Shown here: piece by piece, positions 2,014-25,804 of the stretch
How the letters are laid out: each line of letters begins with the position of its first letter
Position numbering within the stretch: the stretch's first letter is position 1
From: Microbulbifer sp. Q7
Lineage (GTDB): Bacteria > Pseudomonadota > Gammaproteobacteria > Pseudomonadales > Cellvibrionaceae
DNA: 64,000 nt
Assembly (NCBI RefSeq): GCF_001639145.1
Contig: NZ_LROY01000002.1
Coordinates: 124,001 to 188,000 of the forward strand
Direction of reading: 5' to 3'
The notes under the pieces: model-generated
What the model was told of the DNA's origin: nothing
Database searches by the model: none
The model's input: only the letters and a program-made list of their open reading frames with translations
Position numbers and translations under genes: made by a program

Positions 2014-2029
2014 ATGACAACGCTGTCAT
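2014..2029. promoter_or_regulatory. LacI-type operator upstream of nagK
   Basis: ATGACAACGCTGTCAT, a 16-bp inverted repeat with one mismatched base pair. Its exact reverse complement is found upstream of pgi (8466-8481), and two close variants precede the TonB receptor gene. The motif has the central CG/GC dyad usual for LacI-family operators, and a LacI-family gene lies in the same locus. The assignment of this regulator to this site is inference. Confidence 0.75.
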
Positions 2030-7151: not shown

Positions 7152-8201
7152 TTATCGTACGGGCGAGTCGCCGGTAGAGTCGCGCACCAGTAATTCGGGC
7201 ACGAATTTTTTGATGATCCCCGCATCTTTGTTGGCGGCGGCGCTTTCCGCCGCGCTCTTGCTGCGCGCCTTGTTCAATACCAGAGCCGCGGCACACTTGG
7301 CGATTTCATTATTTGGCTGGTGCGCGGTGGTCAGTTTGGGCCAGGTCTGGCGGGAGAAGGGGCTGTCCTCGAAGCCGACGATGGAAAGCTGCTCGGGAAT
7401 TTCGATGTGCATCAGTCGCGCAGCAAACAGCGCACCCGCCGCCATCTCGTCGTTACTGGCAAAAATAGCGGTGGGTGGGTTGTCCCGCTCCAGCAGTTGC
7501 TTCGCACCGGATACACCGGAGTCGAACGAGTACTCGCCGGCAACAATAAGCTCTGGCTCGATGGTGATTCCCGCCTGCTGCAGCGCTTCCTTGTAGCCAT
7601 CCAGTCGCCCGTGGGTGGAAATGTGTTCCTCACCACCACACAGAAAACCGATGCGCTTGTGGCCGTGCTCAATCAGGTGTTTGGTGATGTCGAAGGCGGC
7701 CGCGGTATCGTCGACCTGAATGCAGTTTTCTTCGTCGCCCTCGGCGGCGCCACTGGAAACAATGCGCACATAGTCGAGGCCGAGCTTTTTCACTTCATCG
7801 ATGACGGCCTGGGTTTCGGAGAAGGGCGGTGTGAGCACCACGCCGGCTACCTTGGAATGCTCCACCAGTGCTCGCAACTCGTCGTTTACGGTGTCGGACT
7901 TCGAGTTGCTGGGGTGAATGAGCAGCTCGTAACCCCGGGCCTTGCAGGCTTCAAGGATGCCGTTCTGCATATCGATCACATAGTAGGCATTGGGGTTGTC
8001 GTAGATCAGGGCAATGGTATAGCTGCGCGTACCGGCCAGGTTGCGCGCCGCCAGATTGGGCTGATAGTGAAGTTCCTCCACCGCATCCATCACTTTCTTG
8101 CGGGTGGCGGGCCGGACCGATGGCTCGTTATTGATGACCCGGGAAACGGTCTTGATCGACACGCCGGCGAGTGCCGCGACGTCGTTGATGGTGCTCTTCA
8201 T
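7152..8201 (-). CDS. nagR: LacI-family transcriptional repressor, probable regulator of the GlcNAc/ED regulon
   Basis: About 349 residues. Residues ~1-50 form a LacI helix-turn-helix (STINDVAALAGVSIKTVSRV, then the hinge helix QPNLAARNLAG). Residues ~60-340 form a periplasmic-binding-protein-like sugar sensor domain, with IFASNDEMAAGAL and SIVGFEDSPF typical of the family. ATG 8201 is chosen because it aligns with the usual LacI N-terminus; an in-frame TTG at 8210 is closer to the AAGGA site and cannot be excluded. The gene lies between the nag and pgi-edd operons, and LacI-type operators occur before both and before the TonB receptor. The effector, probably GlcNAc-6-phosphate or a related compound, is inferred. 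Confidence 0.85.
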   Translation of the reverse strand: MKSTINDVAALAGVSIKTVSRVINNEPSVRPATRKKVMDAVEELHYQPNLAARNLAGTRSYTIALIYDNPNAYYVIDMQNGILEACKARGYELLIHPSNSKSDTVNDELRALVEHSKVAGVVLTPPFSETQAVIDEVKKLGLDYVRIVSSGAAEGDEENCIQVDDTAAAFDITKHLIEHGHKRIGFLCGGEEHISTHGRLDGYKEALQQAGITIEPELIVAGEYSFDSGVSGAKQLLERDNPPTAIFASNDEMAAGALFAARLMHIEIPEQLSIVGFEDSPFSRQTWPKLTTAHQPNNEIAKCAAALVLNKARSKSAAESAAANKDAGIIKKFVPELLVRDSTGDSPVR

Positions 8202-8427
8202 GGTCGGCAATGTTCCTTATCCATACCCAGCCGCGCAGTTTACCTGTTTGCGGGCTGCGCGACGACGGCTTAGTAGTCATTTATTCCCAGTGCGGGGATG
8301 CCTGTGTAAAAAAACGGATTTTCCCGGCAAATCCCCTCAATCTTAGTGCTTTTTTGCGGCTGTTACCGTGTTCGACGGAATCGCGGGCGAGTGATAGAAG
8401 ATTTGTGAAACAAAACTACAAACGCGA

Positions 8428-8465: not shown

Positions 8466-8481
8466 ATGACAGCGTTGTCAT
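8466..8481. promoter_or_regulatory. LacI-type operator in the nagR-pgi intergenic region
   Basis: ATGACAGCGTTGTCAT, the exact reverse complement of the operator before nagK. Its position between the divergent nagR and pgi genes would let one site control the Entner-Doudoroff operon and possibly the regulator's own gene. Confidence 0.75.
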
Positions 8482-16406: not shown

Positions 16407-17843
16407 ATGATTCGCCATACAAAAATTGTTGCCACACTTGGCCCGGGTACCGACAAGCCTCGCGTCATCGACGAGATTATCCGCGCCGGCGTCAATGTCG
16501 TGCGCCTGAACTTTTCCCACGGCAGTGCCGACGATCACCGCAAGCGTGTGGAAGAGGTGCGTCGTGCATCCGCTGAGCAAAACCGTCTGGTCGCCGTACT
16601 GGGCGATCTGCAGGGCCCCAAGATCCGCATTGCCCGCTTCGCCGAGGGCAGCATCTTTCTCGAGAACAATGCCGAGTTCACCCTCGACGCCGACTGCCCG
16701 AAAGAGGGCGGAAACCAGCAGCGCGTTGGTGTGGACTATCCGTCGCTGATCGCTGACTGCAAACCGGGGAATATCCTGCTACTGGATGACGGCAAGATTC
16801 GCCTGGAAGTGACTGGCGGCACCCAAAGCAAGTTGTTCTGTCGGGTATTGCAGGGCGGCAAGCTCTCCAATAACAAGGGGATCAACTTGCTGGGTGGCGG
16901 GCTGTCGGCACCGGCACTGACCGAAAAAGATTACGAAGACATCAAACTTGCCGCTGAACTGGACGTGGATTTTCTGGCGGTAAGTTTTCCGCGCAGTGGC
17001 GAAGATCTGGAAATTGCGCGGCAAGCTCTGCGCAACGCTGGTAGCAATGCCGCGATCGTCGCCAAGGTCGAGCGTGCCGAGGCCGTGGGCAGCGATGAGC
17101 AGATGGACGATATTATCCTCGCGTCGGACGTCATTATGGTCGCGCGCGGAGATCTGGGTGTGGAGATCGGCGATGCCGCGCTGGTGGGCGTACAGAAAAA
17201 ACTGATCAATCGGGCCAATGCACTGAACCGCGGCGTAATCACCGCGACCCAGATGATGGAGTCGATGATTACCAATCCGACCCCGACGCGCGCCGAGGTG
17301 ATGGACGTGGCCAACGCGGTGCTCGACGGTACCGATGCGGTTATGTTGTCGGCGGAAACGGCCGCGGGCGACTTCCCGGTTGCGGCCGTCGAGTCCATGG
17401 CCGAAGTGGTGGTCGGTGCCGAACAGTATCTGGGCACCACCACACGTCCGGCGGCAGACCGCTCTGCATCGGAAACCATTGATACGGTCATTGCCCAGGC
17501 CGCAATCGAATCCGCAGCACGGGTGGAAAACCTGTGTGCGGTAGCGGCACTGACCGAGTCCGGTCGCACCCCGCGCATCATGTCCCGGGCCACTTCGCAG
17601 CTGCCGATTTACGCCCTGACCCGTCATCCGCGGGTCGCCCGTCAGCTGGTGCTGCTGCGCGGCGTGGAGCCCATCGAATTTGATCCCGCTTCCGTACCCC
17701 TCGGCCACCTGACCGATGCCATCGTCGAAGTTCTTGGCTCCCGCATTACCCTGCAGAAAGGCCAGCGCATCCTGATTACCCAGGGCGAGCGCCTGAATAT
17801 GGGGGGAGGCACCAGCTCCATGCGCATCAAGGAAATTGAATAG
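16407..17843 (+). CDS. pyk: Pyruvate kinase
   Basis: A 478-residue enzyme that transfers phosphate from phosphoenolpyruvate to ADP. Motifs in order: RHTKIVATLGPGTDKP at the N-terminus, VRLNFSHG near residue 35, VAKVERAEAV near 220, VARGDLGVEIG near 247 and ITATQMMESM near 280. A C-terminal allosteric domain covers about residues 350-478. ATG 16407 begins directly at the conserved N-terminus. It ends the sugar catabolism block; the remaining lower glycolytic enzymes (pgk, gpm, eno) are not in the window. Confidence 0.96.
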   Translation: MIRHTKIVATLGPGTDKPRVIDEIIRAGVNVVRLNFSHGSADDHRKRVEEVRRASAEQNRLVAVLGDLQGPKIRIARFAEGSIFLENNAEFTLDADCPKEGGNQQRVGVDYPSLIADCKPGNILLLDDGKIRLEVTGGTQSKLFCRVLQGGKLSNNKGINLLGGGLSAPALTEKDYEDIKLAAELDVDFLAVSFPRSGEDLEIARQALRNAGSNAAIVAKVERAEAVGSDEQMDDIILASDVIMVARGDLGVEIGDAALVGVQKKLINRANALNRGVITATQMMESMITNPTPTRAEVMDVANAVLDGTDAVMLSAETAAGDFPVAAVESMAEVVVGAEQYLGTTTRPAADRSASETIDTVIAQAAIESAARVENLCAVAALTESGRTPRIMSRATSQLPIYALTRHPRVARQLVLLRGVEPIEFDPASVPLGHLTDAIVEVLGSRITLQKGQRILITQGERLNMGGGTSSMRIKEIE

Positions 17844-17864
17844 CACTCTTTCACAAGGTGCCAG

Positions 17865-17892
17865 CCCACCCCGGCATGGAGGCCGGGGTGGG
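17865..17892 (+). terminator. GC-rich hairpin downstream of pyk
   Basis: A perfect 11-bp stem (17865-17875 with 17882-17892) and a six-base loop. No T tract follows, so it may be a transcript-end stabiliser rather than an intrinsic terminator. The rest of the 391-bp gap to the TonB receptor gene is AT-rich and holds the two operators described separately. Confidence 0.45.
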
Positions 17893-18124
17893 TGCCGGGA
17901 TAAGTATGTCCGCTGAGAAGCACCGTGAAGTAAAACCCTAAGTGGCCGGTCGGTCACAAAATTTGAACAATTTATATTCTATTTTTCTGGGAGAGCCGGC
18001 ACCTGTGGCGCATGAGATGTCATAAATGGCAGGTGGAAGTTACATAAAGCGACAAATTACCCGGATTTTTTCTCCCCCTGACGGTAGCTTTTTTATCGCA
18101 TTGTGTGTATTGTCGATCTTGAGA

Positions 18125-18140
18125 ATGACAGCGCTATCAT
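18125..18140. promoter_or_regulatory. LacI-type operator, distal copy before the TonB receptor
   Basis: ATGACAGCGCTATCAT, differing by two bases from the pgi-side operator. It is followed 24 bp further on (start to start) by an identical copy. Confidence 0.7.
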
Positions 18141-18148
18141 AAAAACGA

Positions 18149-18164
18149 ATGACAGCGCTATCAT
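18149..18164. promoter_or_regulatory. LacI-type operator, proximal copy before the TonB receptor
   Basis: ATGACAGCGCTATCAT, identical to 18125-18140. It lies 70 bp before the start codon. Both copies carry the same half-site change (TATCAT instead of TGTCAT). Confidence 0.7.
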
Positions 18165-18234
18165 TTGGCGGTACAAGGTGAATAAAAAGTTTCTAGCCAA
18201 ACCTTTATATCTATAAAAAAGGAAGGGGAAATCG

Positions 18235-20904
18235 ATGCTTAAGCGTAACAAACTCGCTCTCTCGATCAGCGCAGCTGTACTGAGTGGTGGCCTGATGGCT
18301 CCACTGGCAGTTGCTCAGCAAACTGAAGCTCTCGAAGAAGTAACCGTGACAGGTATTCGTGCTTCTCTGCAGGATGCTCTCAGTACAAAACGTGATGCAA
18401 ACGCCATCGTCGACGCAATCTCTGCGGAAGATGTAGGCAAGTTTCCGGACAAAAACGTCGCCGAATCTCTCTCTCGCGTGCCGGGCCTGGCGGTGAGCCG
18501 CGAGTTCGGCGAAGGCGAAAAGATTAGTATTCGTGGTGCCGGTCCAGATCTTAACCGTACTCTGCTCAATGGTCAGACTGTAGCCACCGCTGACTGGTTC
18601 ATCCTCGATGATCCTGCTCGTAGCTTTAACTACACCCTGCTGCCGTCAACCCTGATTTCTGGTTTGGAAGTCTACAAGTCTCCGATGGCATCCATCGATG
18701 AGGGTTCGATCGGTGGTACGGTAATCGTGAAAACTCGCCGTCCATTAGATATGGAAGCCAACGCAATCAATATTGCTGTGGAAAGCCAGTACTCCGATAA
18801 GTCTGGCGAGAATGACCCACAGTTGGCTGCTCAATACTCATGGAAGAACGAGTCTGAGACATTTGGTGTTCTTGTCTCTGCCGTTAAGCAAGACCGCACT
18901 TTGCAGCGTGAAGGCTTGGAAATTCTCGGGTGGAATGAATCCGATGCAGATGCCTACAGTGTGCCTAGTCACATAGGCATCGCAAAATTTGAGCAGGCAC
19001 GTGAACGCGAAACGTTCTTCTTGTCTGCGCAGGCTGCACCAAGCGAGGAGCTGACATTTACTTTCAACGCTTTGTCGTCTGAAATGAATGCGAACAACCA
19101 GAACCAGAACTTCTTGTTGCTGCCAAATAATACTCGCGACGAAATCATCGCAAACAGTGGCATCAGCGGCGGTAATGTTACTTCCTCCGCGGTAACAAAT
19201 AATAGTGGTGCCATTTTCCTTGATTTCATCAATCGTGTATCCAGCACCGAAACCGAATCTTACGACTTGTCTGTAGATTACGAAACCGACGCTTTTTCTC
19301 TGCACGGGGTGGTTGGTAAAACCGAAGCGGCTGGTGGTACCTACCGCGAGACCTCCTGGGAGTACGTAAATGCGACCGCTAACTATACCTATGATCTGAA
19401 TAGTCGCGAGGTTAATACCTCTCCTGAGACCACCGATGCCGATGCATTTGGCGCGGGCTGGATCTGGGGTGGTGAGCGTCCGACCACTGACGAAGAGTCA
19501 TACGCGCAGTTGGATCTGGATATTCCGGTCGAGTTCTCCGTTTTCACCAACATCAAAACCGGCCTCAAATATCGCGATGCGGAGCGTGCTCAAGAGCGTA
19601 CCGTTTACAGCTGGCACGGTCCCAATACGCTGCAGGATGAAAGTCTTGCTCCAGATTGGCCCGTTTACTTGCAGTATATTTTTGATAATTGCCCGACACT
19701 TGCATCTTGCGGATTGGATGCCAAGGGAACTGTGAACGTAGACGCGCCGGCTTCCGGTAGTCTGCTGAAGCAAATCGAGCAAAACCGCCAAGCGATGGAA
19801 GAGATGGCTTTTGTTGGCTTGAACGGTGTTCCTGCTGATTACGCTCGCTCTCTGGAGTTGGCGCAAAACTGGGCTGTTGGCGAAGAAATTACCGCGCTTT
19901 ATGTGCAGGGCGATTTCGAGGGTGAGAGCTTCCGCGGTAACGTAGGCCTGCGTTATGTCGATACTAAGCAGGCTTCCGGTGGCTATCGCTGGTTGGACGG
20001 AGCCTCTCCTTCTTGGGGCTTCTATACAGTTGATCGTGAGTGGCTGGCACCAGCAGAGCTGGATTGGGTAGTTGTAGATAATAACTACAGTGAAGTGCTG
20101 CCTAGCGCTAACTTTATTTACGATCTGGACGATGAAACTCAGCTGAAACTCGGTGTTGCTCGCGTAATGGCGCGTCGCAACCAGAGCACCTTGTCACCAT
20201 TCGAGACCTACGGTTCATTGAATCAGGCGAATCCGACTGGCCAGAAGGGCAACCCGATGTTGCCGCCGATGCTGGCAAATCAGTTTGATGCGTCTTACGA
20301 GTGGTACTATCAGGACGCTTCTCTGCTTGCGGCTACCTTCTTCTACAAGGACATTGACAGCTACATTTACGGTGAGGAAACCGTAGATGCACGCTATAAC
20401 GAACAGACTGATGAGATGGTTGATGTAACCTTCACTCAGCAAATTGCTGGCGAAGGCGGTACCACCACTGGTCTGGAAGTGAGCTGGCAGCATGACTTCG
20501 ATGGCTTTGGTGTTCAGGCGAATTACACCTATACAGATGCCTCCTCTGACCAGAAGCGAGAAGCAGATAAGGTAGGGTCCGGTCTTGTTGAGGGTGCTTC
20601 CGAGCACATGTACAACCTGACTGGATACTATGAAAACGACTGGGTGGGCGCGCGCCTGATGTATAACTACCGCACTGAGTGGTACAAAGGCCTTCACTTT
20701 AATGGTGATGAACTTTGGAATGACTCGTACGGTCAGTGGGACGCCAGCATCTCAGCTGCTGTTACCGACAATATCGACCTTGTTTTCGAGGCTGTGAACC
20801 TGACTGATGAAGAATTGGTTGAGTTCAACACCGATAGTGGACGTATTATGTCTGCATACGAGAACGGTCGTCGTTTTGTTCTGGGCGCTCGCATGAGCTT
20901 CTAA
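18235..20904 (+). CDS. TonB-dependent outer-membrane receptor (Xanthomonas/Caulobacter type), probable GlcNAc or chitooligosaccharide uptake
   Basis: An 889-residue outer-membrane protein. The signal peptide ends near residue 27 (LAVAQ). A TonB-box-like EEVTVTGIRASL follows directly. The plug domain covers about residues 45-180 (VGKFPDKNVAESLSRVPGLAVSRE, ISIRGAGPDLNRTLLNGQ) and the β-barrel about 190-889, ending in RFVLGARMSF with terminal phenylalanine. This is the TonB-Xanth-Caul subfamily, common in carbohydrate uptake loci. Two LacI-type operators directly upstream place it in the same inferred regulon as nagK and pgi, so an aminosugar ligand is likely. There is no SusD partner. A strong terminator follows before the halogenase gene. 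Confidence 0.93.
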   Translation: MLKRNKLALSISAAVLSGGLMAPLAVAQQTEALEEVTVTGIRASLQDALSTKRDANAIVDAISAEDVGKFPDKNVAESLSRVPGLAVSREFGEGEKISIRGAGPDLNRTLLNGQTVATADWFILDDPARSFNYTLLPSTLISGLEVYKSPMASIDEGSIGGTVIVKTRRPLDMEANAINIAVESQYSDKSGENDPQLAAQYSWKNESETFGVLVSAVKQDRTLQREGLEILGWNESDADAYSVPSHIGIAKFEQARERETFFLSAQAAPSEELTFTFNALSSEMNANNQNQNFLLLPNNTRDEIIANSGISGGNVTSSAVTNNSGAIFLDFINRVSSTETESYDLSVDYETDAFSLHGVVGKTEAAGGTYRETSWEYVNATANYTYDLNSREVNTSPETTDADAFGAGWIWGGERPTTDEESYAQLDLDIPVEFSVFTNIKTGLKYRDAERAQERTVYSWHGPNTLQDESLAPDWPVYLQYIFDNCPTLASCGLDAKGTVNVDAPASGSLLKQIEQNRQAMEEMAFVGLNGVPADYARSLELAQNWAVGEEITALYVQGDFEGESFRGNVGLRYVDTKQASGGYRWLDGASPSWGFYTVDREWLAPAELDWVVVDNNYSEVLPSANFIYDLDDETQLKLGVARVMARRNQSTLSPFETYGSLNQANPTGQKGNPMLPPMLANQFDASYEWYYQDASLLAATFFYKDIDSYIYGEETVDARYNEQTDEMVDVTFTQQIAGEGGTTTGLEVSWQHDFDGFGVQANYTYTDASSDQKREADKVGSGLVEGASEHMYNLTGYYENDWVGARLMYNYRTEWYKGLHFNGDELWNDSYGQWDASISAAVTDNIDLVFEAVNLTDEELVEFNTDSGRIMSAYENGRRFVLGARMSF

Positions 20905-20916
20905 GGCATAATGGCT

Positions 20917-20948
20917 AAAAAACCGGGTCTTTGACCCGGTTTTTTTTT
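20917..20948 (+). terminator. Intrinsic terminator after the TonB receptor
   Basis: AACCGGGTC (20921-20929), loop TTT, GACCCGGTT (20933-20941), then a T tract to 20948. A tracts also flank the stem on the left. Confidence 0.9.
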
Positions 20949-21045
20949 GCCTGTCGAAAAGCGTATGGACGCAAATTTTTCTTGGGGTTATCTTGGCTTA
21001 TAGGTGATTGGCTAGGTCTGGTGTGTCTTTATCTAGGAGGCAAAG

Positions 21046-22530
21046 TTGGAAACAGGCAACATTGGCAATATTGTGATTCTCGGTGGAGGCACAGCGGGGT
21101 GGATGACCGCGGCGCTATTGAGAAGGGCGCTTCCAGAGAAGATATCGATTACTTTGATTGAGTCGGACCAGATTGGCACTGTAGGTGTGGGCGAAGCCAC
21201 GATACCGCCGATACGACAATTAAACCAAGTGCTTGGTATCGACGAGAGGGAGTTTTTGCGGGAGACGCAAGGTACCGCAAAACTTGGAATCATGTTTGAA
21301 GGTTGGCGTGTCAATGGCGAAAGCTATATGCACGCATTCGGCCCAGTCGGTAAAAACTTCCCGTTCTGTGATTTCCATCATTATTGGGCTCGGGCTCGAA
21401 TAGAAGGAGATGGCAGCGATTATTGGGATTACTCATTAAACTACCAGGCCGCTATTGCCGGGAAGTTTTCTGCGGTGAGTAAGATTCCTGCAACTAACTT
21501 TTCAGGTCTATCTTACGCATATCATTTCGACGCCGGTTTGTATGCGAGTTTATTGCGTCGTCATGCAGAAGCTAAGGGCGTGCTCAGAATCGAAGGCAAG
21601 GTGGGTGACGTGCTTAACAGCTCCCGCCGTGATTTTCTCGCCGGTTTGCAGCTTGAAGATGGCCGTGAAGTCTGCGGCGATCTATTTGTCGACTGTTCCG
21701 GGTTTGCTGGATTGCTAATAGGACAATCACTGGGTGTTCGATATTTGAGCTGGGATGATTGGCTTCCCTGTGACCGTGCGATAGCTGTTCCTAGTAGTGG
21801 CGTTGCCCCGATCCCTCCGTTTACCCGTTCAATTGCACATGATGCAGGCTGGCAGTGGCAGATTCCGTTGCAGCACCGAACCGGTAATGGGTTGGTTTTT
21901 TCTAGTACGCATTGGGACGATGATCAGGCGCTTTCGGTGTTGATGCGCAATCTCCCCGGCGAACCGTTAGCCGAGCCGAAAATCATCCCATTTAAAACGG
22001 GGTGCCGGGAGAAGCAGTGGCAGGGTAATGTGGTGAGCATTGGACTATCGAGTGGCTTCCTCGAGCCGCTCGAATCTACTTCCATCCACCTAATTCAGAC
22101 CGGCGTAACTCGTTTAATCAATTTCTTTCCTCATCAAAAAATATGTGATGAAGAAATTGCGGAGTTTAATCGGCTGAGTCGTCTTGAGCTCGAATCGGTG
22201 CGTGACTTCATTATCTTGCATTACAAGCTAAACGAACGCAGAGATAGCAGCTTTTGGCAGGATTGTGCGTCGATGGATGTTCCCGATTCATTACATAGAA
22301 AAATTGAACTTTTCCGTAAAACTGGGAAGTTTCCGAAAGAAGCGGATAGCTTATTTTCTGATTCTGCTTGGTTGCAGGTGATGATCGGTCAGGGGGTTCG
22401 TCCTAAAAGTTACCATCCAGCTGCAGGCGACCTGACGGAAAAGCAGTTGCGTGCGTTTTTGCAGGGGATGAGGGCCATGATTGGCAGCTCGGTAGAATCG
22501 ATGCCGCCCCATGCACATTTTATTTTGTGA
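21046..22530 (+). CDS. Flavin-dependent 'tryptophan' halogenase family protein
   Basis: A 494-residue protein with every hallmark of flavin-dependent halogenases: the FAD-binding GGGTAGW at residues 13-19, Lys79 in GTAKLG at the position of the catalytic lysine of PrnA and RebH, WQWQIP near residue 269 that excludes monooxygenase chemistry, and FLEPLEST with Glu343-Ser344. The start is TTG 21046, with AGGAGG ending five bases before it. No tryptophan-derived natural product genes are nearby; the neighbours are a TonB receptor, a JmjC-like protein and SapC. Such halogenase homologues recur beside TonB receptors, and their substrate is not known to me. Codon use is more AT-rich than in the flanking sugar genes. 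Confidence 0.92.
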   Translation: METGNIGNIVILGGGTAGWMTAALLRRALPEKISITLIESDQIGTVGVGEATIPPIRQLNQVLGIDEREFLRETQGTAKLGIMFEGWRVNGESYMHAFGPVGKNFPFCDFHHYWARARIEGDGSDYWDYSLNYQAAIAGKFSAVSKIPATNFSGLSYAYHFDAGLYASLLRRHAEAKGVLRIEGKVGDVLNSSRRDFLAGLQLEDGREVCGDLFVDCSGFAGLLIGQSLGVRYLSWDDWLPCDRAIAVPSSGVAPIPPFTRSIAHDAGWQWQIPLQHRTGNGLVFSSTHWDDDQALSVLMRNLPGEPLAEPKIIPFKTGCREKQWQGNVVSIGLSSGFLEPLESTSIHLIQTGVTRLINFFPHQKICDEEIAEFNRLSRLELESVRDFIILHYKLNERRDSSFWQDCASMDVPDSLHRKIELFRKTGKFPKEADSLFSDSAWLQVMIGQGVRPKSYHPAAGDLTEKQLRAFLQGMRAMIGSSVESMPPHAHFIL

Positions 22531-22570
22531 GCTCCAGTGAGGATTTTTTTGGGTAACTTGGAGGTTTGAT

Positions 22571-23614
22571 TTGGACGCTGCTTTACTTGAAAGGATGAAA
22601 AATATCCCATCGATCCGTATGGGCTGTGGGCGAGAATTCCAGGATGAGATTGTTGCCAGGCATACGCCAGTGGTTTTTCGGGGGGGGGTAAAAGATTGGG
22701 AGCTGGTGAGAGCGGCAAGGCAGTCTGATGAACACTTGATCAAATATCTTAATAAGAGGGTGATACCTGGCCCGGTGAAAATAATAGAGGGGTCAAAGGA
22801 GTCTGGAGGCTATTTCTTCTACGATGACGTGATGTCTGGGTTTAATTTTAGACGTGTCCAAACCACATTTTTTGACTTTTCCGATAGGTTGTTGCGGGCG
22901 AAGAAGCAGGCTGATGCTCCGGTTCTATCTCTGCAAAGCGCCTACATCGATGAGTACTTTTCTGGTGTGCATGACGAAAACTCGCTTGATTTATTTGGTG
23001 CAGATGTTCGTCCAAGAATCTGGATCGGTGGTAAATCAATTGTCGCGACTCACTATGATGACGCTGAGAATTTGGCGTGTTGTGTCGCCGGTAGGCGTCG
23101 TTTTGTTTTGTTCCCACCCCAGCAAGTGGGAAATTTGTACATAGGTCCCATTGATAATACCCCTGCCGGTGCGCCTGTGAGTATGGTCTCCTTGATGGAG
23201 CCAGATTTTGAAAGGTTTCCCAGGTTTGAGCAGGCACTTGGACACGCTTGGGTCGCTGAGTTGGAGCCGGGCGATGTCATATATATCCCGGCTCTCTGGT
23301 GGCACCATGTGGAGTCACTTGAAGCTGTCAACGCTTTGGTGAACTATTGGCAGGGGGGCTCTATCGGTGGTGAGTTAGGTCCGAGTGCCGTTGATGCTAT
23401 GTTGTTGGGTATGCTTGCTCTCAAACATCGTTCTGCACCGGTGAAAGACGCGTGGAGGGCGCTGTTTGACCATTACGTTTTCGGTCAGAATGGTGATGCT
23501 GGAGAGCATATTCCAGCGGCAAAAAGGGGGTTTCTCGGTGATTTGGATGAGGAGAGAGTCAAAAACGTTAAAGCTTGGCTAATCAAGCAGTTATCTGATC
23601 CCGGTCGATTTTGA
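22571..23614 (+). CDS. JmjC/cupin-8 domain protein, probable Fe(II)/2-oxoglutarate-dependent hydroxylase
   Basis: A 347-residue protein of the cupin-8/JmjC (FIH-like) family. An N-terminal region with PVVFRGGVKDW (~33-43) is typical. The iron triad is visible: His161 and Asp163 in THYDD, and His245 in LWWHHVESL. Relatives hydroxylate side chains of proteins or small molecules. The start is TTG 22571, with GGAGG ending six bases upstream. It starts 40 bp after the halogenase, so the two are very probably co-transcribed. A run of nine G residues (22680-22688) lies inside codons 37-40. Base composition is AT-richer than in most of the window. The substrate is unknown. Confidence 0.87.
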   Translation: MDAALLERMKNIPSIRMGCGREFQDEIVARHTPVVFRGGVKDWELVRAARQSDEHLIKYLNKRVIPGPVKIIEGSKESGGYFFYDDVMSGFNFRRVQTTFFDFSDRLLRAKKQADAPVLSLQSAYIDEYFSGVHDENSLDLFGADVRPRIWIGGKSIVATHYDDAENLACCVAGRRRFVLFPPQQVGNLYIGPIDNTPAGAPVSMVSLMEPDFERFPRFEQALGHAWVAELEPGDVIYIPALWWHHVESLEAVNALVNYWQGGSIGGELGPSAVDAMLLGMLALKHRSAPVKDAWRALFDHYVFGQNGDAGEHIPAAKRGFLGDLDEERVKNVKAWLIKQLSDPGRF

Positions 23615-23781
23615 GCGTCTTCTGCGTCCAGGTTGGATCCTCTCGGGAAAAATGGTGAGCCGGAGTCGGAAATACTGGAATCTTTGGCTTTCCTGAGGTA
23701 ACTTTTTGCTTCCCTTTTTGAGTATAAAAAATATACTGAGCGGGTTTTTTAGAATAACTTCAAATTTCAATAAGGTGTTGT

Positions 23782-24498
23782 ATGGCCACTGTAGAAGCCC
23801 CAAAAATCGTACCTCTGCGCAGCGACGTCCACGGCAAGCTGAAAGTCCGTGAATTGGGGACCTTTGAGCACGTTAAGAATGCCCACATGGTGCCGGTAAC
23901 TGCTCACGAATTCTCCCGTCTGGGCGCTGAGTTCCCGATCGTGTTTGTCAAGAATTCCGACACGGACCAGTTCCAGTCTGTTGCGCTTCTTAGCCTGAAA
24001 GTGGGCGAAAACCTGTTCGTAGATGGCGATAAGTGGAAAGGTGTTTTTGTTCCTGGCGCTGTGCGCAATCATCCTTTCGTTCTGGCACCGGCTGGTGAGA
24101 ACAAAGAGCAGCTGATGGTGGGCCTGGTTGAAAACAGCCCGGTTGTCGGTGAAGAAGAGGGTGAAGCCCTGTTTACCGAGTCTGGTGAAGAGTCCGAATA
24201 CCTGAAAGCCAAGAAAGAGGCGCTGGTGGGTTACCTGGAAAGCGACCAGATGACCAAGGCGTTCATCACCATCCTCGCCGAAAAAGACCTGCTGACCACT
24301 CAGAACGTTGCGGTCAATGCCGGTGGTGAGAAGATCAACCTGACCGGTATCTACATGGTTGATGAGAAGAAACTGGGTGAGCTGAGTGAGGAAGACTACG
24401 CGGACTTCCGCAAGCGCGGCTTCCTGCCGCCGCTGTTCGCGCAGCTGGGCTCCATGCACCAGTTTTCGCGCCTGGCCAAAATGCAGGCTGACGCCTGA
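23782..24498 (+). CDS. SapC-family protein
   Basis: A 238-residue, probably cytoplasmic protein of the SapC family, named after a Campylobacter surface-array locus gene. Typical features are the N-terminal VPLRSDVHGKLKVRE and the middle region FPIVFVKNSDTDQFQSVALLSL, and the acidic, helix-rich C-terminal half. There is no signal peptide or membrane segment. Its biochemical role is not established. It sits 167 bp after the JmjC-like gene, and a TonB receptor-halogenase-cupin-SapC neighbourhood recurs in carbohydrate loci of marine and plant-associated proteobacteria. Its base composition is back to the window average. ATG 23782 has AAGGTG upstream. Confidence 0.85.
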   Translation: MATVEAPKIVPLRSDVHGKLKVRELGTFEHVKNAHMVPVTAHEFSRLGAEFPIVFVKNSDTDQFQSVALLSLKVGENLFVDGDKWKGVFVPGAVRNHPFVLAPAGENKEQLMVGLVENSPVVGEEEGEALFTESGEESEYLKAKKEALVGYLESDQMTKAFITILAEKDLLTTQNVAVNAGGEKINLTGIYMVDEKKLGELSEEDYADFRKRGFLPPLFAQLGSMHQFSRLAKMQADA

Positions 24499-24501
24499 TA
24501 T

Positions 24502-24558
24502 TGGCGCCCAGGGGGCGCCAGCTCCCTGATTATCCCGGCCTTGTCTGAGGCCGGGATA
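24502..24558 (+). terminator. Two successive hairpins after the SapC gene
   Basis: The first stem pairs TGGCGCCC (24502-24509) with GGGCGCCA (24513-24520). The second pairs 24531-24540 with 24549-24558, ten perfect base pairs. The T content after the second is only modest, so termination efficiency is uncertain. Confidence 0.55.
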
Positions 24559-24578
24559 TCCTTCCGGTTTACCTCATC

Positions 24579-25619
24579 ATGTCTGTTTCCCGTTACGTCC
24601 CCTGGCTTTTCTTTCTCGCCGCATTCTATGGCCTGTGGGCACTGTTCATCTCCAGTCAGGGCCTCTGGGCTGCGGTCGCTGAACACTGGCCGATGGCGTT
24701 GTCCATGGCTATTGGCAGTTATGCCGCGGGCTCTACCCCAATGGGGGGCGGTACTGTCGGTTTTCCGGTGCTGGTGCTGCTGTTTGATATGCCTGCCAGT
24801 CTCGGCCGGGATTTCAGTTTTGCGGTGCAGTCCATCGGTATGGTGAGCGCCAGTATTTTTATCTTCTGCCGTCGTCAGCTGCTGGCCTGGTCCATGCTCC
24901 GCGGCGCGCTTCTTGGCAGCCTGCTGGCGACGCCGTTGGGTATTCTCTATTTCGCGCCCCTGATCCCCGAGTTGTGGGTAAAGCTCTCGTTTGCGGTGAT
25001 CTGGGGCAGCTTCGGTATATTGCACCTGTATCGCCTGCGCGAAATCACCGCCCACGACCATGCCGGTGATCCGCGCTGTCCCAAGGATTTTCGCGTGGGG
25101 TTGTTACTGGGTGCGGCTTCTGGCTTCGCGGCGGTATCGGTGACCGGTGTGGGTATCGATATGGTGATTTACGCTGCCCTGGTATTGCTCAGTCGGGTGG
25201 ATTTGAAGGTGGCCATCCCTACATCTGTGGTGATCATGGCGTTTTCTTCAGTGGTCGGTGTGGTGGTGAAGAGCGTGACCGGGGACTGGCAGCCGGGGGT
25301 GTTGGGTAACTGGCTTGCGGCTGCGCCGGTGGTGGCTCTTGGAGCGCCGCTCGGGGTGTTTGTGGTTGGTCTGATTGGCCGCAAGCCCACCTTGCTGGTG
25401 GTGGCCCTGTTGTGCATTGTGCAGTTCATCTGGACCTGTGTGTCGGAGAGGGCGACGCTGGGGCTGGCGGGTACGTTCATCGCGTTGTGTTCAGTGCTGG
25501 TGTGTCTGGCCGGCTTCGAGGCGTTGCGGCTACTCGGCCTGCGCAGGGCGGACAATCGTAATGCGATGGTAGCTGGAGGCGACGCGCTTCCGGTGAGTCA
25601 TCTGGCAGCGGGTTCTTGA
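24579..25619 (+). CDS. TauE/SafE-family membrane permease
   Basis: A 346-residue inner-membrane protein with about eight hydrophobic segments, matching the sulfite exporter TauE/SafE family. The repeated glycine-rich turns GSTPMGGGTVGFPVL (~50-64) and GFAAVSVTGVGIDM (~182-195) are the two family half-repeats. Members move sulfite, sulfoacetate or other small organic anions, and the substrate cannot be told from sequence. It begins 80 bp after the SapC stop, with two hairpins between, so it is probably a separate unit. A bidirectional terminator follows. Confidence 0.82.
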   Translation: MSVSRYVPWLFFLAAFYGLWALFISSQGLWAAVAEHWPMALSMAIGSYAAGSTPMGGGTVGFPVLVLLFDMPASLGRDFSFAVQSIGMVSASIFIFCRRQLLAWSMLRGALLGSLLATPLGILYFAPLIPELWVKLSFAVIWGSFGILHLYRLREITAHDHAGDPRCPKDFRVGLLLGAASGFAAVSVTGVGIDMVIYAALVLLSRVDLKVAIPTSVVIMAFSSVVGVVVKSVTGDWQPGVLGNWLAAAPVVALGAPLGVFVVGLIGRKPTLLVVALLCIVQFIWTCVSERATLGLAGTFIALCSVLVCLAGFEALRLLGLRRADNRNAMVAGGDALPVSHLAAGS

Positions 25620-25656
25620 TTGCGCATACTGCGCGTACTGGAATTGGCGGCAAAAT

Positions 25657-25690
25657 AAAAAAGGCGATCTCATGTGAGATCGCCTTTTTC
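25657..25690 (+). terminator. Bidirectional intrinsic terminator
   Basis: GGCGATCTCA (25663-25672) pairs with TGAGATCGCC (25675-25684), with six A residues on the left and five T on the right. It serves the TauE-like gene on the plus strand and could end the tRNA transcript on the minus strand. Confidence 0.85.
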
Positions 25691-25694
25691 GTAT

Positions 25695-25804
25695 ATGGCT
25701 GGGGTGGAAGGATTAGCTTCGCCTGCGGCTCGCTGGTGTCCGTTGGCTGCGCCAACTTCGGCTCGAACCTGTCAGAGCGCGCTGCCTTCGCTGCGCCGAC
25801 TGCC
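25695..25804 (-). repeat. tRNA-Gln-derived repeat module, copy A
   Basis: It begins with 20 bases identical to the 3' end of tRNA-Gln as read on the plus strand (25695-25714) and continues with a segment containing the hairpin GTTGGC-TGC-GCCAAC. A second copy lies at 31031-31140 beside the other tRNA-Gln. The two agree base for base for the first 43 positions and well beyond. On the tRNA strand the module follows the tRNA directly. Confidence 0.8.

Follow-up and report, generated by a model that had tools for sequence, protein, structure and literature searches.

A TonB Receptor Barrel and Its Neighboring Oxygenase Genes Change as One Block at the nag Locus of Microbulbifer

Gene Content of the Locus and Its Place in the GlcNAc Regulon

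The window analyzed here is a stretch of 64,000 nucleotides from Microbulbifer sp. Q7. Between positions 18235 and 24498 it carries four genes, all on the + strand, which encode a TonB receptor, a BrvH-like flavin halogenase, an FIH-like Cupin_8/JmjC protein and a SapC protein. An earlier note, made from the sequence alone, had named these four genes, and profile matches to TIGR01782, PF04820, PF13621 and PF07277 place each of them where it had been read. The features of the locus and of the genes sharing its operator are:

2014..2029, both strands: operator copy upstream of the nagK-nagB-nagA-nagP run, exact match
7152..8210, - strand: regulator of the LacI family, presumed to be a NagR-like repressor (LacI domain PF00356, periplasmic-binding domain)
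8466..8481, both strands: operator copy upstream of pgi, exact match
18125..18140, + strand: first operator copy upstream of the receptor, exact match
18149..18164, + strand: second operator copy upstream of the receptor, exact match
18235..20904, + strand: TonB receptor, type A among the nag-locus receptors (TIGR01782, Plug and barrel domains)
20917..20945, + strand: hairpin followed by a T run, between receptor and enzymes (-18.6 kcal/mol, z -5.8)
21046..22530, + strand: flavin-dependent halogenase, assigned to group C (BrvH-like), called start TTG (PF04820, 613.5 bits)
22571..23614, + strand: Cupin_8/JmjC protein, FIH-like probable 2-oxoglutarate hydroxylase, called start TTG (PF13621, 229.1 bits)
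23782..24498, + strand: SapC family protein, the constant right-hand neighbor (PF07277, 221.4 bits)
24579..25619, + strand: TauE/SafE-type membrane protein, next after SapC (PF01925)

The gene order receptor, halogenase, cupin, SapC is unusual, the order elsewhere being SapC, cupin, halogenase; SapC stands last in the nag loci of Microbulbifer. The TauE/SafE-type protein probably lies outside the receptor-enzyme system. The receptor scores 637.7 bits against TIGR01782 (curated cut-off 310) and is made up of a signal peptide-like leader, a plug (residues 52-162) and a barrel.

Membership of the receptor in the GlcNAc regulon, as the earlier note had it, is supported by the LacI-type operator that it has in common with nagK and pgi: the pattern ATGACANCGNTNTCAT occurs ahead of nagK (2014), ahead of pgi (8466) and in two copies ahead of the receptor (18125, 18149), and the window holds 8 strand-matches with at most one mismatch against 0.11 expected. 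One or two operator matches are present in all 34 of the nag loci described below that have a receptor, and elsewhere in the genome a one-mismatch site precedes an LPMO_10/GbpA_2 gene. NagK, NagB-II and NagA score above curated NCBIfam cut-offs, and the NagP-like permease reaches 527.7 bits, below its cut-off of 625. The LacI-family protein has no specific NCBIfam model above its cut-off; we infer that it binds the operator. The hairpin, of a kind found in 32 of the 34 loci, is probably a leaky terminator that separates the receptor from the enzymes. In Shewanella, the LacI-type NagR regulons comprise nagK, nagB-II, nagP and an outer-membrane receptor gene, according to the main text of PMC2996990, and the window shares with them these four genes and a LacI regulator; the words halogenase, SapC and Pass1 do not occur in that main text.

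Halogenase, Cupin_8 and SapC Proteins

The halogenase displays the glycines of the GxGxxG FAD motif (G13, G15, G18), the catalytic Lys (K79), the WxWxIP motif (W269, W271, I273, P274) and E340, and has the same active-site motifs as BrvH and Xcc4156 (PDB 6frl and 6y1w). It scores 494.5 bits to 6frl, 514.3 to 6y1w and 610.1 to the nearest chain, 9luq, compared with at most 279.8 bits to chains named tryptophan 5-, 6- or 7-halogenase, PrnA or RebH. Judged on these sequence comparisons the protein belongs to group C, nearer to BrvH/Xcc4156 than to the tryptophan halogenases, and its ATIPPI and HAFGP segments resemble the group C motifs tabulated in PMC8269204. For BrvH and Xcc4156, the portions of PMC5945002 and PMC7336383 drawn on here give in vitro activity on indoles and name no native substrate; a peptide substrate has been proposed for both (PMC7336383), and entry of larger substrates is described as possible (PMC5945002).

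The iron triad of the cupin (HxD...H) is formed by H161, D163 and H245, each present in at least 95% of 120 relatives. Among solved structures it is closest to FIH, which ranks first with 80.1 bits, and to further JmjC proteins; with FIH it shares the Cupin_8 domain and its HxD...H motif, in an alignment that covers cupin residues 156-264 only. The conserved R176 seems to lie near the position of the 2-oxoglutarate-binding lysine in FIH. The cupin is a probable FIH-like 2-oxoglutarate hydroxylase. SapC covers the whole PF07277 model with 221.4 bits (cut-off 28.9), and its predicted fold found no match in the PDB. The name of the SapC family is tied to an S-layer role, which finds no support here, where the protein is a constant neighbor of a TonB receptor. 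A class-wide sample of 143 genomes, sparse and left out of the co-occurrence counts, has SapC in 21, some of them without any halogenase match.

Halogenases Adjoin TonB Receptors Across Proteobacteria

The earlier note had stated that halogenase homologues recur next to TonB receptors, and their association proved to be more than chance. PF04820-family halogenases are abundant, with up to 27 matches in one Cellvibrionaceae genome. In six complete Cellvibrionaceae genomes, 46 of 50 have a TIGR01782-type receptor no more than 5 kb away, whereas random placement (1000 runs) gave a mean of 3.0 and a maximum of 10. The receptor list behind this count comprises 103 places, of which 94 exceed the family cut-off and 9 score lower; it excludes still weaker partial matches, in three of the six genomes the candidates were only partly scored, and one of the 46 linked halogenases has no neighboring receptor other than one below the cut-off. 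Among 80 named proteobacterial loci, a TIGR01782-type receptor is present in the fetched DNA of 71, and 66 show a same-strand run from receptor to halogenase. Halogenase and receptor also show signs of a shared history: their distances correlate (0.42 over 32 pairs, permuted mean 0.04, none of 2000 permutations as high), and they agree in nearest neighbor in 15 of 20 cases (mean 1.5). In one locus, L219, a halogenase is fused to DUF6445. Random association of the families, which the earlier note had set beforehand as refuting its proposal, was tested in this way, and the association is far from random.

TonB does not occur in the main texts of PMC5945002, PMC7336383 or PMC8269204. A link between group C halogenases and TonB receptors is likewise absent from the titles and abstract openings searched, a scope that leaves most subscription journals outside. 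The co-occurrence may already be familiar to specialists, because regulon databases presumably include the halogenase and SapC genes of loci like these.

Receptor Barrel and Enzymes Change Together at the nag Locus

A closer comparison is offered by the nag locus itself. A SapC of 65% identity or more was present in 37 genomes, from which we obtained a set of 36 loci (the window and 35 others; G234, on a short contig, was left out); five further loci with a SapC of 39-40% identity were excluded. Two of the 36 (L285 and L290) have no receptor yet keep SapC. A short halogenase-like ORF follows SapC in L285. In the remaining 34, the left side (operators, leader and plug) and the right side (SapC) are conserved, while the receptor barrel and the intervening genes vary as one block. 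The intervening set may be halogenase plus DUF6445, Cupin_8, DUF6445 or others, and in 15 of the 34 loci no enzyme stands beside the receptor.

The enzyme set follows receptor identity (difference 0.33, none of 5000 permutations as high, kinship among the 34 loci being ignored). In the 165 pairs whose SapC identity reaches 90% or more, receptor identity averages 0.88 where the enzymes are the same and 0.45 where they differ; L262 and L263, for instance, have SapC proteins 99% identical and receptors 39% identical, and carry halogenase plus DUF6445 and a cupin, respectively. This block-wise change of receptor barrel and enzymes at the nag locus, in 34 genomes of marine Microbulbifer, is new. 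The window halogenase itself is an optional addition that changes partner, because type A receptors 83-84% identical to that of the window occur without it, and because it is 64% identical to a halogenase whose receptor is only 26% like the window's.

The SusC/SusD shufflons of Bacteroides, which are invertible, likewise vary outer-membrane sugar receptors by exchange of parts; unlike them, the exchange here is seen between genomes and takes the enzymes along. A phase-variable receptor shufflon was considered and set aside, there being no inverted repeat of at least 18 nt within positions 17600-25800 of the window.

Search for a Receptor Residue Tracking the Halogenase

The 94 receptors over the cut-off (33 linked to a halogenase, 61 unlinked) were compared column by column, and no Trp, Tyr or His was found that marks the linked receptors. 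The best residue was a Thr (p 4.4e-6) and the best aromatic reached p 1.6e-5, in 1620 tests and before correction for descent; on the receptor tree the linked receptors group together, with 19 changes where 200 shuffles gave a mean of 27.6 and a minimum of 22. Columns 1435, 2414, 1747 and 2462, four of nine picked, were not significant in 17 phylogenetically independent pairs, of which few were informative, so that power was low. Trp content is equal in linked and unlinked receptors (1.49 and 1.36%, p 0.24), and Tyr and His are also without difference. Linked receptors are slightly longer (median 1016 against 972, p 0.02), richer in Gly and Pro and poorer in Leu and Arg.

Within type B, none of the invariant residues (13 Trp, 32 Tyr, 6 His, 29 Phe) separates seven halogenase-bearing from three halogenase-free receptors. 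Compared with two close halogenase-free receptors, that of the window differs at 1 of 19 Trp, 6 of 41 Tyr, 1 of 6 His and 2 of 35 Phe, in line with the general divergence of these sequences.

Possible Roles of the Enzymes

The change of barrel and enzymes together, while the neighboring genes stay constant, suggests that it is the receptor, and not the sugar, for which the enzymes work. We lean, with somewhat less than even confidence, to a reading in which they tailor the receptor or a receptor-specific partner in the cytoplasm before export. The GlcNAc regulon would switch on the TonB receptor, and the enzymes and SapC, behind the leaky terminator, would be expressed more weakly. Halogenase and FIH-like hydroxylase would remain cytoplasmic and consume oxygen, the former using FADH2 and halide, the latter Fe(II) and 2-oxoglutarate, and the cognate receptor, or its specific partner, would acquire halogenated and hydroxylated side chains before Sec export. 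SapC could be a common partner, perhaps with a holding or presenting role. Belonging together, enzymes and barrel would pass from strain to strain as a single unit flanked by the conserved plug and SapC, and the benefit could be tuning to the ligand or escape from phages or bacteriocins.

A fuller version, possible but distinctly doubtful, would see the locus as a diversifying receptor island in which the barrel is swapped together with cognate protein-halogenating and protein-hydroxylating enzymes, giving each strain its own chemical receptor surface through dedicated enzymatic halogenation of a surface protein. SapC would then be a common adaptor with a fold new to the PDB, and DUF6445 would join the two enzymes as a third oxygenase open to exchange.

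It is rather unlikely that the enzymes modify, in place of the receptor, another protein that depends on receptor type, be it a partner in the periplasm or at the surface, or even SapC. Such a target would fit the failure to find a receptor residue that tracks the halogenase, and SapC is the most regular nag neighbor (36 of 36, by selection), kept even where the receptor is gone. However, SapC does not vary with the enzyme set (identity 0.83 with the same set and 0.84 with a different one; 3331 of 5000 permutations as high, kinship ignored) and is kept where there are no enzymes, and a search for five families found no further gene exchanged with the enzymes between receptor and SapC. For a secreted peptide, another target put forward in the earlier note, no gene was noticed in an unsystematic look at short ORFs.

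We would give a similarly small chance to mere linkage, in which adjacency alone accounts for the joint exchange and the enzymes have a separate job, such as oxygen or redox sensing or the making of a signal, for which they borrow a sugar-induced promoter. Exchange as one block carries all its contents, so that neighbors are expected to travel together regardless of function; the presence or absence of the halogenase beside receptors 82-84% identical, and its change of partner, agree with this, and the tests used fit function and linkage alike. Against it, halogenases are linked to receptors time and again in records from alpha-, beta- and gammaproteobacteria, different kinds of halogenase have been recruited to the same locus (31-35% identity between that of the window and those of type B loci), and 43 of the 50 halogenases in the six genomes lie downstream of the receptor on its strand, which is not expected of chance neighbors.

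Of the roles that the earlier note had put forward, action linked to the receptor gains from these data, whereas the tailoring of a small ligand loses, for the same two reasons: the enzyme set follows receptor type where sugar pathway, operator and SapC are constant, and the same halogenase family adjoins receptors in loci for different sugars. That the enzymes act on a small aromatic ligand or signal entering or leaving through the receptor is improbable, although free indole is a substrate for in vitro bromination by group C halogenases (PMC5945002, in the part drawn on here) and a TonB receptor could transport such a compound. The loci serve ordinary sugars (of 53 neighbors scanned, 13 have alpha-amylase and 6 have GH97; here the genes are nag) and point to no common aromatic compound. 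Other flavin halogenases are natural-product enzymes, but that this one belongs to such a pathway and stands here by chance is hardly credible, given the receptors beside 46 of 50 halogenases and the absence of any biosynthetic core gene noticed on inspection of the ORFs in positions 1-34000 of the window.

Implications

The nag locus provides a natural controlled comparison, in which the sugar pathway, the operator and SapC are constant and the barrel and the oxygenases differ. It thereby points to the protein to take for mass spectrometry and to the genomes to compare. Should halogenation or hydroxylation of the receptor prove true, a function would be in hand for these orphan enzymes, and a new type of surface-protein modification would be added to those of bacteria.

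Gene content and location of the cassette

The earlier note had assigned four genes to one cassette, and both their positions and their families proved correct against the ORF list and profile matches:

18235-24498, forward strand: TonB receptor of the TIGR01782 type, halogenase, Cupin_8/JmjC protein (cupin) and SapC

Upstream lie nagK, nagB-II and nagA, all NCBIfam equivalogs above cut-off, a NagP-like permease scoring under its cut-off, a LacI regulator and pgi, and the interval from pgi to the receptor holds Entner-Doudoroff genes and pyk (named from reading the ORFs). The halogenase carries the FAD motif, K79, WxWxIP and E340, and is closer to 9luq, Xcc4156 and BrvH than to tryptophan halogenases; the native substrate of BrvH and Xcc4156 is left open in the available text of their reports (PMC5945002, PMC7336383). 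The same gene (21046-22530) matches the phage family PHROG 2928 (tryptophan halogenase, 333 bits); in the available part of a metatranscriptome study, such transcripts are assigned to Pelagibacter phages, cyanobacterial phages and Colwellia (PMC11337851). The cupin carries HxD...H, and its top solved relatives are FIH, then JMJD5. SapC, for which a fold without PDB relative is predicted with high confidence, is 95-96% identical to proteins of M. hydrolyticus and uncultured Microbulbifer. Visual inspection and a simple hydropathy score showed no signal-like N-terminus in halogenase, cupin or SapC, so all three are probably cytoplasmic.

A 16-bp palindrome occurs in single copy upstream of nagK and of pgi and in two copies upstream of the receptor, and we infer that the LacI protein binds it. 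With up to one mismatch, this operator has 18 forward matches in the whole genome (reversed control: 0), one of them preceding an LPMO_10/GbpA_2 gene; a one-mismatch copy precedes a further receptor, beside which are two halogenases, one of these on the opposite strand (G000:C2:636182-642196, on contig C2 of the window's own genome). Two exact copies 30 bp apart occur at G000:C2:239652-239697.

Association of halogenases with TonB receptors

Each of the seven halogenases of the window's genome has a receptor no more than 3 kb away. Across six complete genomes from the family, 46 of 50 halogenases have a TIGR01782-type receptor at a distance of 5 kb or less, and 43 of the 50 are downstream of it on the same strand; of the 103 receptors, 34 have a halogenase at such a distance. 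A halogenase is close by for 8 of 15 SapC genes (0.3 expected) and for 9 of 16 Cupin_8 genes; SapC and cupin are therefore regular, not obligate, partners of the halogenase. A third SapC-cupin pair of the window's genome (G000:C2:1712267-1713825) has no halogenase within 38 kb, the nearest listed receptor being about 4 kb away.

Among public genomes, the 80 loci with the best 80 relatives among the matches listed include 71 with a TIGR01782-type receptor, 66 with a same-strand run from receptor to halogenase (direct in 56) and 11 with SapC and cupin together, and two of the nine without such a receptor (L201, L237) hold another kind of TonB receptor. Scanning 53 of the 209 listed neighbours, mostly downstream and co-directional, gave 13 alpha-amylases, six GH97, one each of GH3, GH31, GH43, GH68 and LPMO, and three DUF6445 proteins, one as a fusion with a halogenase; GH16 is present in locus L209. 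DUF6445, with its invariant HxD...H plus an Arg, is probably a 2OG-Fe(II) oxygenase. The natural halogenase-DUF6445 (PF20043) fusion is encoded in a Comamonadaceae MAG (L219:7989-10214).

Eighteen halogenases follow a cupin, 16 of them within one clade of 20; the window halogenase falls outside this clade and groups with halogenases directly after receptors. The catalytic lysine is missing in 3 of 156 halogenases (L081:5319-6779, L103:5236-6843, L226:6530-8011), each directly after another halogenase, and these are possible pseudo-enzyme partners.

For 32 receptor-halogenase pairs, between-genome distances correlate at 0.42, as against a mean of 0.04 when partners were shuffled within genomes (0 of 2000 trials reached 0.42). 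The window is one exception: its halogenase is 64% identical to that at 2.495 Mb, the corresponding receptors being 26% identical.

Block exchange at the nag locus

Of 48 genomes in the window's genus, 37 encode a SapC at 65% identity or more, and 36 of these loci, window included, form the nag-locus set. In 34 the receptor stands upstream of SapC and has one operator match or two; in L285 and L290, receptor and enzymes are missing from the interval between pyk and SapC, and SapC is kept. Because SapC is retained even without receptor or enzymes, its role must be wider than this set of genes. Beyond the receptor stop codon is a hairpin plus T run, present at this place in 32 of 34 loci versus 27 of 720 random segments from those loci, for which reason the receptor is probably made in excess of the enzymes.

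When five families were sought between receptor and SapC, the interval was empty in 15 of the 34 loci and otherwise held halogenase-DUF6445 (7), cupin (4), DUF6445 (3), SapC-cupin (2) or, in one locus each, halogenase-cupin (the window), two halogenases, or halogenase-SapC-halogenase. At 60% identity the receptors form types A (8, the window's included), B (10) and C (14) and two singletons. The types share about 80% identity over the first 51 residues, 56-68% in the plug and 32-41% in the barrel. In three pairs of loci, the DNA is alike from the left flank across the operators into the receptor gene up to the plug region; similarity is gone over barrel and enzymes except for short patches, and returns 81-88 nt before SapC.

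In permutations that ignore the shared descent of receptor types, the enzyme set tracks receptor identity (0 of 5000 as high) and not SapC (3331 of 5000 as high); receptor and SapC identities are uncorrelated (0.05). On the SapC tree, no fewer than 13 changes of receptor type are needed, as against a mean of 16.8 and a lowest value of 13 over 300 sets of random labels, and since this is near random, exchange seems frequent, although a one-gene tree is weak evidence. The window halogenase is only 31-34% identical to type B halogenases, which indicates that halogenases were recruited separately to this locus.

Possible role of the oxygenases

Barrel and oxygenases change jointly against an unchanging sugar pathway, operator and SapC, and for this reason we favor a role of the oxygenases in service of the receptor; the evidence argues against chemistry on a sugar or small ligand, the latter among the roles raised in the earlier note. 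Linkage alone could also be considered, as neighboring genes can travel together without joint function. The target could instead be a partner other than the receptor. No residue tracking the halogenase was found in linked versus unlinked receptors or in nag-locus receptors, and closely related receptors of the nag loci occur both with and without halogenase (none of the enzymes accompanies the type A receptor of L280, and the halogenase is absent beside three type B receptors). The simplest chemistry would be modification of the receptor before export, as enzymes that depend on reduced flavin, iron and 2-oxoglutarate are expected to act in the cytoplasm. Such modification is hypothetical, and it would be no general requirement of receptors, as about two-thirds of those in the six genomes lack a halogenase at up to 5 kb.

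Every gene family involved is already known, as is the TonB-receptor sugar locus as a kind. A literature search with partial coverage (titles and abstract openings) found no halogenase-TonB receptor link and, as far as it shows, block exchange of receptor barrel and oxygenases is undescribed. The nag locus offers a natural experiment, in which barrel and oxygenases vary against a constant pathway, operator and SapC.
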